Positions 643 to 11,089 of a stretch of DNA of 45,154 nt are shown here, in pieces. Source of the stretch: Clostridia bacterium. Lineage in GTDB: Bacteria > Bacillota > Clostridia > JAQVDB01. A program made the position numbers and the translations under genes. The first letter of the stretch is position 1; each line of letters starts with the position of its first letter. The notes under the pieces are model-generated. The model did no database searches and had not been told where the DNA came from. It worked only from the letters and a program-made list of their open reading frames with translations. The stretch lies in the NCBI GenBank assembly GCA_028698525.1, contig JAQVDB010000007.1, positions 1 through 45,154 of the forward strand. The letters are read 5' to 3'.

Positions 643-873
643 TTATTCAACAATAAATTTTTTTATATCAGAAAGCAAGTCATCGCAATTATCATCATAT
701 ATTTCTAGGGTGAGAGGTTTGTTTAAATCGAGACTAAATATGCCCAGGATTGATTTTGCATCCACTAAATGTCTACCGGACTTTAAATCAATTTCATACG
801 GATATCTAGAAACAATGTTAACAAAATCTTTTACGTTCTCTGCCATCTGAAGTCTAATGTTTACACTTTTCAT
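643..873 (-). CDS. small HPr-like protein lacking the active-site His
   Basis: A 76-residue protein resembling HPr phosphocarriers of the sugar phosphotransferase system, especially in the segment VDAKSILGIFSLDL, which matches the HPr region that normally carries the regulatory serine, and in the final acidic helix. Residues 1-25 contain no histidine where HPr has its catalytic His15, so it probably cannot carry phosphate from enzyme I. The Ser of AKSILG is retained. The start used here is ATG at 873, preceded by GAGGGGG at proper spacing; an upstream in-frame extension is not supported by a ribosome binding site. Degenerate HPr-like proteins are common in Clostridia and mostly uncharacterised. 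It is a single gene facing the CBS gene; its role is unknown. Confidence 0.75.
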   Translation of the reverse strand: MKSVNIRLQMAENVKDFVNIVSRYPYEIDLKSGRHLVDAKSILGIFSLDLNKPLTLEIYDDNCDDLLSDIKKFIVE

Positions 874-1016: not shown

Positions 1017-2009
1017 ATGAAATTAGGGATACCTAGAGGTTTATTATTTTATTATCATTACCCGTTTTGGGAGACTTTTTTTGAATACTTTGATGTACAA
1101 GTGATTGTAACACCTCAAACCACAAAACGTATTATGGATCAAGGTGTTAAGCTATGCGTTGACGATGCTTGCCTTCCAGTCAAAATATATCATGGACATG
1201 TTCAATATCTCAAAGACAAATGTGACAAAATTTTTGTACCTAGAATAGTTAGTTTATGTAAGGATGAATTTGTATGTCCTAAGTTTTGTGGTTTACCCGA
1301 AATGTTAAAACACAGTATAAAAGGGGTTCCTGACATAATAGATACGACTCTGGATATGAATAGGAATAATAGGCAAATATACAGGGCAGTATATGAATTG
1401 GGAAAAAATTTTACCGATAGCAGTGCTGAAATATTAAAAGCTTATATAAAGGCTTTAAACAGCTTAAGGGAATATAAACGCTTGATGTGTGAAGGGTATC
1501 TGCCTGATCAAGCAATTGATATTATGAAAAGCAAAAACAACATTGCAAAAAGGGAAATAAATGGAGAGTTAATAGGGCTAATAGGGCATCCATATAATAT
1601 ATATGATAGCTATATAAGCATGGATATAGTTAAAAAACTGGATAGAATGGGCTATGATGTAATGACGTCTGAAATGGTGAGTGAAAAGACTATAAATAGA
1701 GAAGACAAAAGATTGCCTAAAAAAATGTTTTGGAGTATAGCAAAAAATATATATGGGGCTGCTATGGATTTTGCTAGAAATCCTAAAATAAAAGGAATTG
1801 TATATTTATCAGCTTTTGGATGTGGTCAGGATGCATTTATTTGGGAGCTAGTGTATCGTGGAATTACTAAAGTATCTGATATGCCGTTAACTTTTATTAC
1901 AGTAGATGAACATACAGGTGAAGCGGGTTTTATAACTAGATTAGAAGCGTTTATTGATATGATCGAGTGGAGGGAAAAAGATGAAAATTACATTTCCACA
2001 CATGGGTAA
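1017..2009 (+). CDS. DUF2229-type acyl-CoA dehydratase activase-related protein (first subunit)
   Basis: This 330-residue protein belongs to the group annotated as acyl-CoA dehydratase activase-related or CoA-protein activase, relatives of the D component of 2-hydroxyglutaryl-CoA dehydratase. It opens with KLGIPRGLLFYYHYPFW and has the family signature DDACLPVKIYHGH near residue 50, followed by further cysteines (SLCKDEFVCPKFCG) that could bind an iron-sulfur cluster. It ends with TVDEHTGEAGFITRLEAFIDM, a motif repeated at the end of the next protein, so the two are paralogous halves. In many Clostridia these domains are fused with ASKHA ATPase domains into one very long protein; here they are separate. 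It overlaps the next gene by 29 bases, implying translational coupling. GAGGAG precedes the ATG at good spacing. The substrate is unknown. Confidence 0.8.
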   Translation: MKLGIPRGLLFYYHYPFWETFFEYFDVQVIVTPQTTKRIMDQGVKLCVDDACLPVKIYHGHVQYLKDKCDKIFVPRIVSLCKDEFVCPKFCGLPEMLKHSIKGVPDIIDTTLDMNRNNRQIYRAVYELGKNFTDSSAEILKAYIKALNSLREYKRLMCEGYLPDQAIDIMKSKNNIAKREINGELIGLIGHPYNIYDSYISMDIVKKLDRMGYDVMTSEMVSEKTINREDKRLPKKMFWSIAKNIYGAAMDFARNPKIKGIVYLSAFGCGQDAFIWELVYRGITKVSDMPLTFITVDEHTGEAGFITRLEAFIDMIEWREKDENYISTHG

Positions 2010-3093
2010 TGTTTATATGGCTGCAAAAGGATTGATGGATTATTTAGAAATTGATGTTATTGTGCCTCCATTATGCAGCAGTGAGACTTTAGAGATTGGC
2101 ACAAAATATTCTCCTGAATTAGCATGTTTGCCGTTGAAGATAAACCTTGGAAACTATATACAGAGTATAGAGAGGGGGGCAGATACTATAATGCTTACAG
2201 GAAGTTGTGGCCCCTGCAGGTTTGGATATTATGGGATTGTCCAACAAAAGATACTAGAAGATTTAGGATATGATGTAGATATAATAATATTTGATCCTCC
2301 GAGAGGCAACATCATGCAATTAATTAGGCGTGCCAACAAAATATTTGGTGGAAAAAAGATCAAAAAGATTGTCCAAGGATTCAAAAAAGCCTATGAGATA
2401 ATATGTCGTGCCGATTATCTAGACAAGCTATCCTTTGAGGTAAGACCTAGGGAAAAGGTTGCTGGGCAAACCGATAGAATTTATATGGATTATAGAAGAA
2501 GGGTAATGAATGCAGTTGGACCGGATGATATTCTCAAAGAGATTGACCATGCTGTAAATAAGCTTTTACTCATAGATACTGATTATAGTAGGGAAATGGT
2601 GAGAATTGGAATTGTAGGAGAAATATATACAATAATTGAACCGTTTGTGAATTTATTTATAGAGCAGAAATTAGGAAATTTAGGGGTAGAAGTGAATAGA
2701 TCCATGAGTATTAGCAGCTGGATAAACAATACTTTCTCTAGGTTTATAGGGGTGGAAAAAGAACAGGAAATAAATGATGCTGCAAAGCCATATTTAGATT
2801 TATGTATTGGAGGGCATGCACGGCAATGTATAGGTAATACAGTATTATATTCACAACAGGGCTATGATGGTGTTATACAGATACTACCTTTTACTTGTAT
2901 GCCGGAAATAGTGGCACAATCTATTCTTCCTACCGTAGAGAGAGATTGTAATATACCAATAATGAGCCTTGTTGTGGATGAATTGACAGGTGAAGCAGGA
3001 TATATGACAAGATTAGAAGCCTTTGTAGATTTGATAAGGCGAAGAAAAGAAAGGAGAGAGCTGGAAGATGGACGGGCTGTTTCTTGGAGTTGA
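1981..3093 (+). CDS. DUF2229-type acyl-CoA dehydratase activase-related protein (second subunit)
   Basis: This 370-residue paralogue of the preceding gene starts KITFPHMGNVYMAAKGLMDY and carries the same ACLPLKINLGN signature near residue 50. A dense cysteine motif, GSCGPCRFGYYG, lies near residue 75, with another cysteine pair in GHARQCIGN and FTCMPEI near the C-terminus. It finishes with VVDELTGEAGYMTRLEAF, as in the first subunit. These cysteines are likely cluster ligands of the component that receives low-potential electrons from the ATP-dependent activase. A strong GGAGGG site lies inside the end of the upstream gene, and the downstream activase gene overlaps by 26 bases, so the three are almost certainly made as a stoichiometric set. 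The reaction catalysed cannot be read from the sequence. Confidence 0.8.
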   Translation: MKITFPHMGNVYMAAKGLMDYLEIDVIVPPLCSSETLEIGTKYSPELACLPLKINLGNYIQSIERGADTIMLTGSCGPCRFGYYGIVQQKILEDLGYDVDIIIFDPPRGNIMQLIRRANKIFGGKKIKKIVQGFKKAYEIICRADYLDKLSFEVRPREKVAGQTDRIYMDYRRRVMNAVGPDDILKEIDHAVNKLLLIDTDYSREMVRIGIVGEIYTIIEPFVNLFIEQKLGNLGVEVNRSMSISSWINNTFSRFIGVEKEQEINDAAKPYLDLCIGGHARQCIGNTVLYSQQGYDGVIQILPFTCMPEIVAQSILPTVERDCNIPIMSLVVDELTGEAGYMTRLEAFVDLIRRRKERRELEDGRAVSWS

Positions 3094-4054
3094 TTTAGGT
3101 TCTGTGAGCACAAACCTCGTTCTTATAGACAATAAAGATAATGTAATTGAAAAATTATACTTAAGGACTGAAGGAAGGCCTATCAAGGTTTTGCAAAAAG
3201 GTTTTGATATTTTAAAAGACAAAATACCTAATAACATTCCAATATTATCAGCTGGATGTACGGGAAGTGGTAGACAGCTAGCTTCTGCTATTGTAGGAGC
3301 GGATATTGTAAAGAATGAAATAACTGCTCATGGGGTAGCCGCTTTAAATTTAGTTAAAGATGTTAATACTATAATTGAGATTGGTGGCCAAGATTCAAAG
3401 ATAATAACAATAAGCAACAGTGTGATCACAGACTTTGCTATGAATACTGTCTGTGCAGCTGGTACTGGATCATTTTTAGATAGGCAAGCATCTAGGTTAA
3501 ATGTAAGTATAGAAAAGTTTGGAGAAATTGCTTTGAAATCTAAGACACCAGTGAGGATTGCAGGCAGATGCGCGGTTTTTGCTGAGTCAGATATGATTCA
3601 CAAGCAACAGTTAGGGCATAATGAAGAAGATATAATAAATGGTCTTTGTCATGCATTGGTGAGAAATTATTTAAATAATGTTGCAAAAGGGAAAACTATC
3701 AAGCCACCAATAATATTTCAAGGAGGGGTTGCCGCCAATGTAGGAATTAAAAGGGCTTTTGAAGAGCAATTGGGATTTGACGTTTTTGTACCGAAACACT
3801 ATGAAGTGATGGGTGCAATTGGCGTAGCTATCCTTGCTAAAGAAAAATACACAAAGCAGAAAAAATCTAGTTTCAAAGGGCTTTCTATCATAAATAACAA
3901 ATTTAATGTTAATAGCTTTCAATGCAATGGTTGTTCAAACAATTGTGAAGTAATAGAGTTGATATCAAATGAAAGTATATTTGCAAGGTGGGGAGACCGT
4001 TGTGGTAAATGGTCCAGCCTAAAGGTAAAAAGCAATAAAATGAATGCAGTATAA
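3068..4054 (+). CDS. ASKHA-fold activase ATPase, BcrAD/BadFG/HgdC type
   Basis: A 328-residue ATPase of the activator family of 2-hydroxyacyl-CoA dehydratases and benzoyl-CoA reductases. The ASKHA motifs are in order: GVDLGSVSTNLVLID (phosphate 1), EIGGQDSKII (phosphate 2 region) and FQGGVAANVG (adenosine). The two cysteines that hold the shared 4Fe-4S cluster at the dimer interface are present, in VCAAGTGSFLDRQA and GRCAVFAESDMI. In such enzymes ATP hydrolysis drives one electron to very low potential for transfer to the partner. A C-terminal extension after residue 280 adds a cysteine cluster (FQCNGCSNNC and GDRCGKW), which in the large fused relatives follows the ATPase domain. It is the third gene of the overlapping set, with AAGGAG before its ATG. 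Confidence 0.9.
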   Translation: MDGLFLGVDLGSVSTNLVLIDNKDNVIEKLYLRTEGRPIKVLQKGFDILKDKIPNNIPILSAGCTGSGRQLASAIVGADIVKNEITAHGVAALNLVKDVNTIIEIGGQDSKIITISNSVITDFAMNTVCAAGTGSFLDRQASRLNVSIEKFGEIALKSKTPVRIAGRCAVFAESDMIHKQQLGHNEEDIINGLCHALVRNYLNNVAKGKTIKPPIIFQGGVAANVGIKRAFEEQLGFDVFVPKHYEVMGAIGVAILAKEKYTKQKKSSFKGLSIINNKFNVNSFQCNGCSNNCEVIELISNESIFARWGDRCGKWSSLKVKSNKMNAV

Positions 4055-4099
4055 AATAGCAAAAAATAATGAATATATTTTTGTAGTGGAGTGATGAAA

Positions 4100-4303
4100 A
4101 TGCAAGATTATACCAGCAAACAGGAGAGGATGTCTGTTGCTCAAAGGTGTCCTGAATATAGGCCTATATCCAGAGAGATGATGTCTTCAAACAATTTATT
4201 ATCCTGTGAACAGTGTAAACATTGGGATGACGGAAAGTGCAAAATTTATGATGATGTTGTATCTACTATTCCAGAGACTTGGAATGATACTGATGGAAGA
4301 TGA
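4100..4303 (+). CDS. small conserved-looking Cys-containing protein of unknown function
   Basis: A 67-residue soluble protein downstream of the activase gene and ahead of a strong terminator, so probably the last gene of that transcript. It has one cysteine in QRCPEYRP and a compact motif SCEQCKHWDDGKCKIYDD that looks like a small metal or Fe-S site (C-x2-C-x7-C). There is no signal peptide or membrane segment. The start is taken at ATG 4100, about seven bases after TAGTGGAG; ATG 4094 is also possible. I do not recognise the family. Its position suggests it serves the activase module, for example in cluster delivery or as a small electron carrier, but that is inference from neighbourhood only. 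Confidence 0.65.
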   Translation: MQDYTSKQERMSVAQRCPEYRPISREMMSSNNLLSCEQCKHWDDGKCKIYDDVVSTIPETWNDTDGR

Positions 4304-4322
4304 ATATTATTTGGACAAATAT

Positions 4323-4378
4323 AAAACCATATATAAAAAACCGGCTTGATATTCAACCGGTTTTTTATATATGGTTTT
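4323..4378. terminator. strong terminator after the activase cluster
   Basis: A perfect 22-bp inverted repeat (4323-4344 with 4357-4378) has a CCGG core flanked by A-run and T-run, and the loop contains a further 4-bp stem. It ends the rightward activase transcript and may also stop the leftward CPBP gene. The rest of the gap up to 4544 is AT-rich and shows nothing else. Confidence 0.88.
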
Positions 4379-4544
4379 GTTGATGAGAGATTTAAATAGA
4401 ATCAGTTTACCTCTTATTGCCATTATTTTACCCACATATATCAAAAATATTCAAAAAATTACTTATAAATTTTTAAAACAATGATGCATATAATATTAGA
4501 AATCTAAAAAGCATATTACAGTATATTCATAGAGATTTTCCTTT

Positions 4545-5159: not shown

Positions 5160-5334
5160 AAACCCTTTCGTAATCAGTATATAGATAACTACCATTAAAG
5201 CTGAAAATATAAATATTATAATATAATTATATTTTTTGGTATTATTAATTGATATCTATAATTAAAAATATTAGAGTTCTATGGAATTTATACTAATAAT
5301 ATTGATAACGATTGATGGTTGGGAGGGGAGTATA

Positions 5335-6639
5335 ATGCTGAATATAGATGATATAGATATAGAACAAGTAATAGATATACCGGTAATGGAGAAATTATTA
5401 AATTCGTTTATATTAGCTACAGATTTAGGGACTATTTTCTTAGATAAACAGGGAGAATTTAAGATAGTTCCCCAAAATTATTATAAAAAGTGCGAATTTT
5501 GTAAAATAATTCAGGATACTGAAAAAGGGAAGGATAGATGTAAGGCATCTATGTTAAAGGCGGGAAAACAAGCCGCAGAATTAGGAGAGCCCTACATCTA
5601 TAGATGTCATGCAGGACTTATAGAATTTTCAGCTCCTATAATGTTTAAAGATTACTATCTTGGAAGTGTGAGCTGTGGTCCAGTATGGATGTGGGAGTGG
5701 GACGAGCTGGCAATAAAGGAGCTGTTGGATAGGTCAAAAGACCTTGATATAAGCAGGGAATCGTTAATAGTTGCAAGCAGAAACCTTAAGGTGCTTTCCA
5801 GCAAAAATGTTCAGGCAGCTGCTGATTTGTTGTTTGTTACTGCTAATCATATAGCTCAGACTGGGATGCTGGTATTGAAGCATAGAAAAGAATTGAATGA
5901 ACAGCAAGCTAAATTGGCAGAGGCAGTATTTGAAAGAAAAAAGGCAGAAGAAACTCTGAAAGTCCTTGAAAGAAAGGCTGTCGGATGTGAATATCCTATT
6001 GAAAAAGAAAAAGAATTATTAAATATGGTAAGGATAGGAGATAGAATAAGTGCAAAAGCCATATTGAATGATTTGTTAGGTAGTATATTTTTTGAGATGG
6101 CAGGAAATCTAGAAGTGATAAAGGCCAGGATGCTAGAATTATTGGTAGGCATCTCAAGAGCTGCTGTAGAAGGTGGAGCAAAATTAGAAAAATTGCTAGG
6201 CATGAACTATAATTTTATAAGCGAACTTTCAAATATTGATTCCTTTGAACTATTATGCCAGTGGATCGTAAAAGTATTGGATATATTTTTAGATACAGTA
6301 TATGAAACTAGAAACGTAAAAAACGCTAAGATATTGAGTGATGCATTGGATTTTATAAATGAGAACTATAATACTGATTTATCCTTGGATAAAGTCGCAC
6401 AAAGTGTATTTATAAGCCCGTATTATTTGAGTCATCTTTTTAAAGAAGAGCTAAACATAACTTTTGTTGAATATCTGACCAGTGTAAGGATAGAAAACGC
6501 AAAGAAATTATTAGATTCCACGCCTTTATCTATTGTTGCAATAGCTTATGAGGTAGGCTACGAAGATGCTAGCTATTTTAGCAAGGTATTTAAAAAAACT
6601 GTGGGATTATCACCTAGTCAATTCAGAAAGGGCCTTTAG
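5335..6639 (+). CDS. PocR-domain AraC-family transcriptional regulator
   Basis: A 434-residue regulator. The N-terminal part (about 20-185) is a PocR ligand-sensing domain, recognisable from the cysteine pattern KKCEFCKIIQ, KDRCKASM, YRCHAGLIEF and VSCGPVWMW. A short coiled coil follows (HRKELNEQQAKLAEAV), then a helical linker, then a C-terminal AraC double helix-turn-helix (about 335-434) ending AYEVGYEDASYFSKVFKK and GLSPSQFRKG. PocR-type regulators are known from propanediol and B12 utilisation, and in anaerobes they commonly sit beside corrinoid methyltransferase genes. The next gene encodes a corrinoid protein, so control of that gene is the natural guess. GGGAGGGG precedes the ATG at 5335; an upstream ATG at 5281 has no ribosome binding site. 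Confidence 0.88.
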   Translation: MLNIDDIDIEQVIDIPVMEKLLNSFILATDLGTIFLDKQGEFKIVPQNYYKKCEFCKIIQDTEKGKDRCKASMLKAGKQAAELGEPYIYRCHAGLIEFSAPIMFKDYYLGSVSCGPVWMWEWDELAIKELLDRSKDLDISRESLIVASRNLKVLSSKNVQAAADLLFVTANHIAQTGMLVLKHRKELNEQQAKLAEAVFERKKAEETLKVLERKAVGCEYPIEKEKELLNMVRIGDRISAKAILNDLLGSIFFEMAGNLEVIKARMLELLVGISRAAVEGGAKLEKLLGMNYNFISELSNIDSFELLCQWIVKVLDIFLDTVYETRNVKNAKILSDALDFINENYNTDLSLDKVAQSVFISPYYLSHLFKEELNITFVEYLTSVRIENAKKLLDSTPLSIVAIAYEVGYEDASYFSKVFKKTVGLSPSQFRKGL

Positions 6640-6649
6640 AATTATGTAT

Positions 6650-6722
6650 AGCAAAATATTGCTAATTATGACAAGATAGCAACGAGTAATAAATATATAT
6701 CTTTGATATAATCATAATTAGC
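6650..6722. promoter_or_regulatory. inverted repeats between the AraC-type regulator and the corrinoid gene
   Basis: Two nested signals lie in the 167-base gap. AGCAA-AATA-TTGCT at 6650-6663 is a short palindrome. GCTAATTATGA at 6661-6671 is repeated in perfect inverted form at 6712-6722, with 40 bases between. A TATAAT occurs at 6708-6713. The arrangement could be an operator for the upstream PocR-AraC protein or an RNA hairpin. The regulatory role is inferred. Confidence 0.45.
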
Positions 6723-6806
6723 TAAAAGGTAGTTATCTATAAAAATATTGATTGTGACGATTTTAAATTGCGTAGTTGCATTTTATTTTAAGGAGGAGGA
6801 GTTCAA

Positions 6807-7439
6807 ATGGCTGATTTTAGAGCTATAGCTGATGCATTAAAAAGCGGAAACGCTCCAAGGGTAAAAGAATTAACAGAAAGTGCACTGAAGGAAGGCGTTG
6901 TCCCGGAGGATATAGTAAATAAAGCTCTTATTGTAGGCATGGGTGAAATAGGGGAACTTTTCAAAAATAATGAAGTATATGTGCCTGAAGTATTAATAGC
7001 AGCAAGAGCAATGAATACCGGACTAGAGGTTCTTAAGCCATTGCTTGCTGAACGTGATGTTAAGCCTGTTGGGACTGTTGTAATCGCAACAGTGAAAGGT
7101 GATTTGCATGATATAGGCAAAAATCTTGTTGCCATGATGTTGAAAGGAGCAGGTTTTGAAGTAAAGGACTTAGGGATAGATGTATCACCTGAAAAATTTG
7201 TGGATGCGGTAAAAGACACAGGAGCAGATATATTGGCTATGTCCGCATTGCTTACTACTACAATGCCCGCCATGAAAGAAACTATTGAAGCTGTTAAAGA
7301 AGCGGGAATGAGGGACAAAGTAAAGATAATGGTGGGAGGTGCACCTGTAACTCAGAATTTTGCTGATGAAATAGGTGCAGATGGATATTCGGCTGATGCA
7401 GCTTCAGCTGCAGAACTTGCCAAAGAATTGATAGCTTAA
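6807..7439 (+). CDS. stand-alone corrinoid (cobalamin-binding) methyl-carrier protein, MtaC/MtbC type
   Basis: A 210-residue two-domain corrinoid protein. The N-terminal helical cap domain (about 1-90) contains LIVGMGEIGELFKNNEVYVPE, and the Rossmann B12-binding domain follows. The cobalt-ligating signature is plain in VKGDLHDIGKNLV (DxHxxG), with the dimethylbenzimidazole-loop residues in LSALLTTTMP and VGGAPVTQNFADEIGADGYS. Such proteins shuttle a methyl group between a substrate-specific methyltransferase and a second methyltransferase that passes it to folate, coenzyme M or homocysteine. No methyltransferase gene adjoins it, which is unusual. It has an excellent AAGGAGGAGG site and a strong terminator directly behind it, so it is a one-gene transcript. 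Substrate unknown. Confidence 0.9.
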   Translation: MADFRAIADALKSGNAPRVKELTESALKEGVVPEDIVNKALIVGMGEIGELFKNNEVYVPEVLIAARAMNTGLEVLKPLLAERDVKPVGTVVIATVKGDLHDIGKNLVAMMLKGAGFEVKDLGIDVSPEKFVDAVKDTGADILAMSALLTTTMPAMKETIEAVKEAGMRDKVKIMVGGAPVTQNFADEIGADGYSADAASAAELAKELIA

Positions 7440-9122: not shown

Positions 9123-9256
9123 CAAGATTAAACCATATATTGCAAAAATATTCTTTTTTAATAAAATTGATTGTGCTATAGTTTAATATACATTGATAAT
9201 TGGTTTGAAAAATAGCTTTGAATATCTTTATAGAAATTAATATTGAGGGGATTGAA

Positions 9257-11089
9257 ATGTGTAATGTAATTGTGAACAAAGGAAATCAAAAGGTTGTGTT
9301 AGTATCAGAAAAAGGACAGGTTCTGTTATCATTATTGCAACGCAATGATTTGTTTATCGAGTCACCTTGTGGTGGAAGAGGGACCTGTGGAAAATGCAAG
9401 GTTACCATTTTAGAAGGCCATGAGAATATTAGTTATATTGATGCGGTTGAGAAGACATATCTTTCAATTCTTGAACAAAAACAAGGGATTAGGCTTGCTT
9501 GTAGGGTTAAGGTGTATGGTGACATAAAAATAGAGATAAACACCAAAGATCAAAGCAAAGCAAGTGTTATGATAGATGGAGCTATAAAAACCAGCATTGA
9601 TAGTGATTATCAGAGAAACGTAAAAAAGGAGAATATAAAACTGAGGATTCCGTCTGTCAGTGATCAGCGTAGTGACGTGCAAAGGTTGGAAGATGGGATT
9701 GGAATAGATTTTAAATACATACCCAAAAATGTTTTATCAACTTTATCAGAGATTTTAAGGAAAAGTGATTATGATATATCAATAGCATATAGTGGAGATA
9801 CTTTGTTGGGCGTAGAGCAGGGAAATACTGAGAAGAACAACTATGGTATTGCACTGGATATCGGTACCACTACTATAGCCGGTTACCTGATCAATATAAA
9901 TTCTGGGGAGCAGATAGATGTTTATTCCAGCTTAAATCCTCAGGCTGCTTATGGAAGCGATGTGATATCTAGATGTGATTTTTCTATAGAAAACAGCCAA
10001 GGAATAAAAGTATTAAATCAGTTGATATTGGACGAAATCAATAGTATGATCGCCTATTTTGTCAGCAATAATGGAATCAGTAGAAATAATATCTATCAAT
10101 TAATAGTTGTAGGCAATACCATAATGTTGCATCTGTTGTTGGCATTGCCTGTAAAAAACATCGCCCTTTCACCATTTATTCCGGTTATCACTAAAAAATA
10201 TGATACTAAAGCGAAACAGGCAGGTATAGCAATTAATCCTAACGGTATCATAAGTTATCTTCCTTGCATATCCGGTTATGTAGGCGCTGATACAGTTGCT
10301 GCAATAGTAGCTAGTGAAATGTATAAAACTGATGATATAAGTTTGCTTATAGATATTGGGACAAACGGCGAGATAGCCCTAGGGAATAGAGATAAAATGA
10401 TTTGTTGCTCAGTTGCAGCTGGTCCGGCATTTGAAGGAGCGCATATAAAAAATGGTGTAGGAGGCATAGAAGGGGCCATAAATAAAGTATATATAGACGA
10501 TGATTGTAGATACCAAACGATAGGGGGAAAGCAGCCTATCGGTGTTTGCGGGTCAGGAATTGTAGATGGAATTGCTGAAATGTTGGATAAAGGGATTATT
10601 GACAACACAGGGAGAATAAGGTCTAAAGAGGAGCTGGAAGATAAAAAAGGTGAAAAATGGATAGAAAGAATTATACAAGTTGATGGCAAACCTGCTTTTC
10701 TTATAGAAAGGCTAGAAGAACAAGAAATAGTCCTGTGCCAAAAAGATATACGGGAGGTCCAGCTTGCCAAGAGTGCTATCGCAGCAGGTATAAATATACT
10801 CATTAATGAGATGAAAATAAAATTGCAAGATATAAAAAACGTATATTTAGCAGGAGGTTTCGGCAATTATATAGACCACGATAATGCTGTTAGAATAGGC
10901 ATCATTCCTGACCCCCTTAAAGACAGAATAATTCCCATAGGCAATGGTGCAGGCGTAGGTGCAAAAATCGCACTATTATCGCACGAACATTTAATGCTGA
11001 CAGAAGAATTGAGGAGGAAAATTCAATATATTGAATTGTCTTCAAGGATGGATTTTCAGGAGATGTTCATTGATTATATATCTTTTTAA
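9257..11089 (+). CDS. RamA-like ATP-dependent reductive activator of corrinoid proteins (2Fe-2S plus ASKHA, DUF4445)
   Basis: This 610-residue protein has an N-terminal 2Fe-2S ferredoxin domain and a C-terminal ASKHA ATPase domain of the DUF4445 group. The cluster ligands are in SPCGGRGTCGKCKVTI and LACRVKV. The nucleotide-binding region shows ALDIGTTTIAGYLI (about 205), LLIDIGTNGEIALG (about 375) and YLAGGFGNYIDHDNA (about 545). Members such as RamA and acetogen O-demethylase activators use ATP to reduce inactive Co(II) corrinoid back to Co(I). That fits the corrinoid protein at 6.8 kb, though ald and a transporter lie between. The start chosen is ATG 9257, after GAGGGG; an upstream in-frame ATG lacks a site. 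A terminator follows directly. Confidence 0.88.
   Translation: MCNVIVNKGNQKVVLVSEKGQVLLSLLQRNDLFIESPCGGRGTCGKCKVTILEGHENISYIDAVEKTYLSILEQKQGIRLACRVKVYGDIKIEINTKDQSKASVMIDGAIKTSIDSDYQRNVKKENIKLRIPSVSDQRSDVQRLEDGIGIDFKYIPKNVLSTLSEILRKSDYDISIAYSGDTLLGVEQGNTEKNNYGIALDIGTTTIAGYLININSGEQIDVYSSLNPQAAYGSDVISRCDFSIENSQGIKVLNQLILDEINSMIAYFVSNNGISRNNIYQLIVVGNTIMLHLLLALPVKNIALSPFIPVITKKYDTKAKQAGIAINPNGIISYLPCISGYVGADTVAAIVASEMYKTDDISLLIDIGTNGEIALGNRDKMICCSVAAGPAFEGAHIKNGVGGIEGAINKVYIDDDCRYQTIGGKQPIGVCGSGIVDGIAEMLDKGIIDNTGRIRSKEELEDKKGEKWIERIIQVDGKPAFLIERLEEQEIVLCQKDIREVQLAKSAIAAGINILINEMKIKLQDIKNVYLAGGFGNYIDHDNAVRIGIIPDPLKDRIIPIGNGAGVGAKIALLSHEHLMLTEELRRKIQYIELSSRMDFQEMFIDYISF

Follow-up and report, generated by a model that had tools for sequence, protein, structure and literature searches.

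Three overlapping genes and a small companion gene at positions 1,017 to 4,303 of a 45,154-nucleotide stretch of Clostridia bacterium DNA (contig JAQVDB010000007.1; this whole stretch is hereafter the window) appear to encode a low-potential, ATP-dependent reductase in split form, a member of the benzoyl-CoA reductase (BCR)/2-hydroxyacyl-CoA dehydratase (HAD)/DCCP superfamily, with the small protein as a dedicated accessory. Family profiles and a predicted fold make this the interpretation that we favour, with moderate confidence. The three larger proteins (the trio) comprise two DUF2229-type subunits and an activase, and the small four-cysteine protein is a true, long-conserved companion of the trio in several Clostridia families. 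The genes and flanking features are as follows.

1017-2009, forward strand: subunit 1, a DUF2229 protein and predicted HAD/DCCP-type reductase subunit (330 amino acids (aa); invariant C52, C87 and C269)
1981-3093, forward strand: subunit 2, a paralogue of subunit 1 (370 aa; invariant C49, C79 and C306, plus C76 and C275)
3068-4054, forward strand: HgdC-type ASKHA ATPase, the activase (328 aa; C129 and C168; C-terminal four-cysteine site)
4100-4303, forward strand: small four-cysteine protein (67 residues, ATG at 4100; C17, C36, C39 and C47; HW motif)
4321-4380, no strand assigned: long hairpin with an internal T tract, 3' of the small gene, a probable bidirectional terminator
643-873, reverse strand: HPr-like protein, a divergent neighbour without the His15 region and with a Ser46-like KSILG motif

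The genes for subunits 1 and 2 overlap by 29 bases and those for subunit 2 and the activase by 26, with Shine-Dalgarno-like sequences at the starts of all three; the small gene follows after a 45-base gap, and the hairpin beyond it forms 28 pairs (folding energy -33.5 kcal/mol). The overlapping frames and the terminator had both been described in an earlier, sequence-only reading of this DNA and are found as described. The C-x2-C-x7-C motif that it gave for the small protein is also present (C36, C39 and C47), but a fourth invariant cysteine, C17, had been overlooked, and the full spacing is C-x18-C-x2-C-x7-C.

The activase matches TIGR00241 (E = 7.3e-55, 186 bits against a cut-off of 125) and has PDB relatives in the HgdC/BcrA family (1hux, 4eht, 9gai and 7yyl). 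Cysteine conservation in the trio proteins was judged across 83-89 orthologues. C129 and C168 of the activase are kept in 89/89 and align with the HgdC cysteines (PDB 1hux) that bind the bridging [4Fe-4S] cluster. An additional C-terminal site, C286-x2-C289-x3-C293-x18-C312, is conserved in 88/89 orthologues, lies past the end of the HgdC match and is a possible electron entry point.

Subunit 1 belongs to DUF2229 (PF09989; E = 7.7e-57), and subunit 2 gives weak matches to DUF2229 and HGD-D (E = 4e-7 and 2.5e-5). Profile-profile comparison with hhalign (E = 1.3e-34) establishes the two as homologous, and the earlier description of paralogous DUF2229-type subunits holds. Both miss the curated HGD-D (PF06050) cut-off of 28.4 bits (18.4 for subunit 1 and 24.5 for subunit 2). 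The sequence profile of subunit 2 found no relative in the PDB, whereas a fold search with its predicted model (predicted local distance difference test (pLDDT) score 80) returned 14 matches at E <= 0.001, with template modelling (TM) scores of 0.47-0.58, all of them DCCP, 2-hydroxyisocaproyl-CoA dehydratase (HadB), 3-methylbenzoyl-CoA reductase (MbdON) or BzdNO. The HAD/BCR/DCCP superfamily is well described, and in BzdO the residues Cys95, Cys128 and Cys380 bind the catalytic [4Fe-4S]-OH2 cluster (PMC11971306). Compared by spacing, the three invariant cysteines of each subunit (two early, one late) resemble this layout. They fall short of the six that DCCP requires for its [8Fe-9S] double-cubane cluster, even in linked loci, where subunit 2 has five.

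Profile homology and the modelled fold suggest that the DUF2229-type subunits are probably the reductase half of the trio, which would then probably be a self-contained ATP-dependent reductase rather than a partnerless activase. Since both subunits are of the type found in dehydratases, DCCP and benzoyl-CoA reductases, three-cysteine pattern included, the trio would need no external partner. The electron-activating module, as first proposed, is supported, and the window contains no gene for a separate dehydratase or benzoyl-CoA reductase, as had also been observed. The step from that absence to an unassigned substrate is not supported: if the subunits are themselves the reductase half, the lack of such a gene is uninformative on the substrate. 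The genome's single separate HGD-D pair, on contig C36 (L021 7044-9961, reverse strand), encodes a 423-aa HGD-D protein and then a 549-aa HGD-D-activase fusion. As a missing partner of the trio it was rejected, because its own activase is fused to its second subunit; the obligate dehydratase partner elsewhere in the genome, which the sequence-only reading had named as evidence against itself, was thus not found. It is unusual for a dehydratase-type subunit and its activator to be joined in one chain.

The companionship of the small protein with the trio was surveyed in 391 Clostridia genomes. With the window protein as query, the small protein was found in 34 genomes, and each of the 13 highest-scoring matches other than the window's own sits immediately 3' of an orthologous activase gene (13/13); these matches come from five GTDB families in addition to that of the window. 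A further scan, of named genomes, partly overlaps the survey (some genomes are in both) and gave 18 small-protein loci, 13 of them trio-linked, including those of Caldicoprobacter oshimai and C. algeriensis. Every one of these 13 linked loci keeps the order subunit 1-subunit 2-activase-small gene and has an HPr-like gene upstream, reading away. A zinc-ribbon-like open reading frame (ORF; ~85 aa, VCPLCNG...) lies directly 3' of the small gene in 8/13 linked loci (L054-L057, L059-L061 and L063) and is absent from the window.

Co-occurrence extends beyond adjacency. A wider-family profile, built from linked and unlinked forms, detected the small protein in 51/391 genomes, trio-linked in 16 and elsewhere in 35. 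Of the 51 genomes with the family, 41 have the split trio, versus 71/340 others (odds ratio 15.5, p = 1.5e-16); when linked genomes are excluded the counts are 25/35 versus 71/340 (odds ratio 9.5, p = 2.4e-9), and at the level of families 19/21 versus 15/65. As a control, the HPr-like family (223/391 genomes) gave odds ratios of 0.99 with the small protein and 0.91 with the trio. Both the adjacency of the 13 best homologues and the overall odds ratio uphold the link to the trio that had been proposed from the window, and the small protein, as a conserved companion, is a good candidate for an undescribed partner of this reductase class.

Linked loci are also marked within the trio itself. C275 of subunit 2, which sits just before an invariant GGH, occurs in 21/21 loci with small, HPr-like or zinc-ribbon neighbours versus 4/66 other window-like loci. 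It may be a simple mark of descent, because a concatenated tree (FastTree) places 21/22 linked loci in one clade (support 0.80); the long branch of the window stands beside this clade, its position unresolved. A second full split trio in the same genome (C33:11092-14168; L020) lacks the small protein. Its activase is 55% identical to that of the window, and its subunit 2 is without C76 and C275 and exceeds the HGD-D (PF06050) cut-off at 43.6 bits. The near-diagnostic C275 and this partnerless second trio offer natural comparisons. The second trio adjoins fructose-bisphosphatase-like and glutamyl-tRNA-synthetase-like genes.

The HPr-like gene is a conserved divergent neighbour in trio-linked loci. 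Its high-scoring subtype is found in 22 genomes at >=133 bits and lies at most ~5 kb from the trio in all 19 that were checked. As a general functional partner the HPr-like family was rejected, given its breadth and its failure to co-occur with either the trio or the small protein; only one HPr-like subtype neighbours the trio.

In the proposed mechanism, an activase homodimer would hold a [4Fe-4S] cluster at the interface of its protomers and take up an electron, possibly via the extra C-terminal four-cysteine site. ATP hydrolysis would then drive the electron onto the reductase half, a heterodimer of the two subunits in which each probably has a single [4Fe-4S] cluster ligated by three cysteines; the iron left open would be the site of substrate reduction or dehydration. 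The small protein would most likely bind a metal or an Fe-S cluster and serve the reductase as electron donor, assembly factor or regulator. Whereas gene order, conserved cysteines, families, fold, linkage and co-occurrence are observed, we infer the cluster types, the heterodimer, the electron flow and the small-protein role. A stronger version, in which the reductase is of split archerase type with the small protein as its obligate fourth component, either as a dedicated Fe-S electron carrier or as a factor for cluster insertion, and in which C275 was gained for interaction or an altered cluster, is tentative and in our estimate rather doubtful; if true, the superfamily would gain its first known subunit of this sort.

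Several results weigh against a dedicated reductase accessory, or against the reductase assignment itself. The wider small-protein family stands away from the trio, in varied contexts, in 35/51 genomes. The sequence-only reading had held that homologues mostly away from activase genes would count against it, and this is the pattern of the wider family, although not of its closest members. Conversely, 71 genomes have the trio without the family, and the co-occurrence tests count genomes as independent though they are related, with the family-level count correcting only partly for shared ancestry. Comparison of the small-protein profile with the PDB gave chance-level matches only (ferredoxin, E = 0.08; HiPIP, E = 0.17), and its predicted model reaches a pLDDT of only 53; the HiPIP-like resemblance of its CxxC...GxC part is a lead only. 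On the side of the subunits, the TM scores of the subunit 2 model are modest, and fold support comes from that model only, subunit 1 being placed by profile homology to subunit 2.

Unlinked small-protein forms often occur as tandem pairs, and most carry two extra residues following the last cysteine; a common neighbour was sought in their contexts and none was found. The Clostridiaceae forms (L239, L240 and L242-L245) are paired in this way and often have flavodoxin-like or serine-biosynthesis-like genes close by. The window's genome also has an orphan paralogue of the small protein (contig C97; L249 1128-1343), beside transposase-like and glycosyltransferase-like genes.

Tiny four-cysteine proteins often bind zinc, and the small protein could accordingly bind zinc and regulate transcription or protein turnover, its co-transcription with the reductase being a matter of chance. 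The unrelated contexts and tandem pairs of the wider family fit this idea, as does the second, zinc-ribbon-like ORF after the small gene in several linked loci. Nevertheless, linkage is kept in the window's own GTDB family and at least five others, co-occurrence holds even where the genes are unlinked while the HPr-like control shows none, and Pfam and NCBIfam searches found no DNA-binding domain in the small protein, for which they hold no family at all; we regard a zinc regulator as somewhat unlikely. Shared ancestry could also produce linkage and co-occurrence by accident, with one clade inheriting a functionally unrelated neighbour, and the near-confinement of linked loci to a single clade (the window's branch aside) is what this would predict. 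Yet gene order has been kept while subunit 1 diverged to ~40-47% identity and many other neighbours changed, and co-occurrence persists both outside the linked genomes and at family level, making such an accident quite improbable.

A different function for the whole module is also conceivable: the trio might use ATP to reactivate some other metalloenzyme, in the way that Ram/RACE proteins serve corrinoids, with the small protein aiding docking on the target. The trio has no assigned substrate, and the window encodes a PocR-type AraC regulator and an MtgC-like corrinoid protein at 5281-7439; a regulator and corrinoid protein also lie downstream of the trio in locus L051, in both cases at most ~7 kb from the module. 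These are, however, the only two instances among 14 trio loci compared, and the window already has its own Ram-like ferredoxin-ATPase gene (9218-11089). Subunits 1 and 2 moreover keep the three-cysteine pattern of a catalytic cluster, and subunit 2 has the predicted HAD/DCCP fold. A reactivator is thus unlikely, and a reductase with a small accessory remains the interpretation that we prefer.

ATP-driven reductases of the BCR/HAD/DCCP superfamily operate at extremely low potentials, and an unassigned one in many anaerobes may therefore mark an unknown reduction. DUF2229 activase proteins occur in some three quarters of the Clostridia genomes surveyed, yet the literature searched gives no substrate for them: a search on DUF2229, COG3580 and COG3581 found no functional study, the fused form included. 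The conserved small partner provides a concrete handle on DUF2229 reductases, and its four cysteines hint at a route by which electrons may enter.

Among known systems, DCCP and its reductase DCCP-R of Carboxydothermus hydrogenoformans (PDB 6eno and 7yyl) resemble the module in the fold of subunit 2, for which DCCP gives the best PDB matches, in an activase of the same ASKHA reductase family, and in that the physiological substrate is unknown there as well. Unlike them, the module has a pair of non-identical subunits, each with three invariant cysteines, plus the small partner, and its activase is ~60 residues longer at the C-terminus, with four more cysteines. The 2-hydroxyacyl-CoA dehydratases (HgdABC and HadBC) and class I benzoyl-CoA reductases (BzdNOPQ and MbdONPQ) likewise combine an ASKHA activase with two related subunits, and BzdO and HadB have a similar three-cysteine [4Fe-4S] pattern; in contrast, the subunits of the module are of DUF2229 type, with HGD-D matches below the Pfam cut-off, and there are no CoA-pathway partner genes. 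We know of no small cysteine protein in either of these systems. The fused DUF2229 activase proteins of Clostridia (~1430 aa) carry the same domains in one chain. DUF2229 is found in 306/391 genomes, mostly fused, with a standalone activase of this kind in ~112, and most of the top-scoring DUF2229 matches in the class lie in frames of ~1400-1490 aa, in agreement with the earlier remark that many Clostridia fuse these domains. The module differs from the fused proteins in having three overlapping genes, with an HPr-like neighbour and the small protein alongside. Trios as such, whether split or fused, are already common; the new element is the conserved small partner and its setting.
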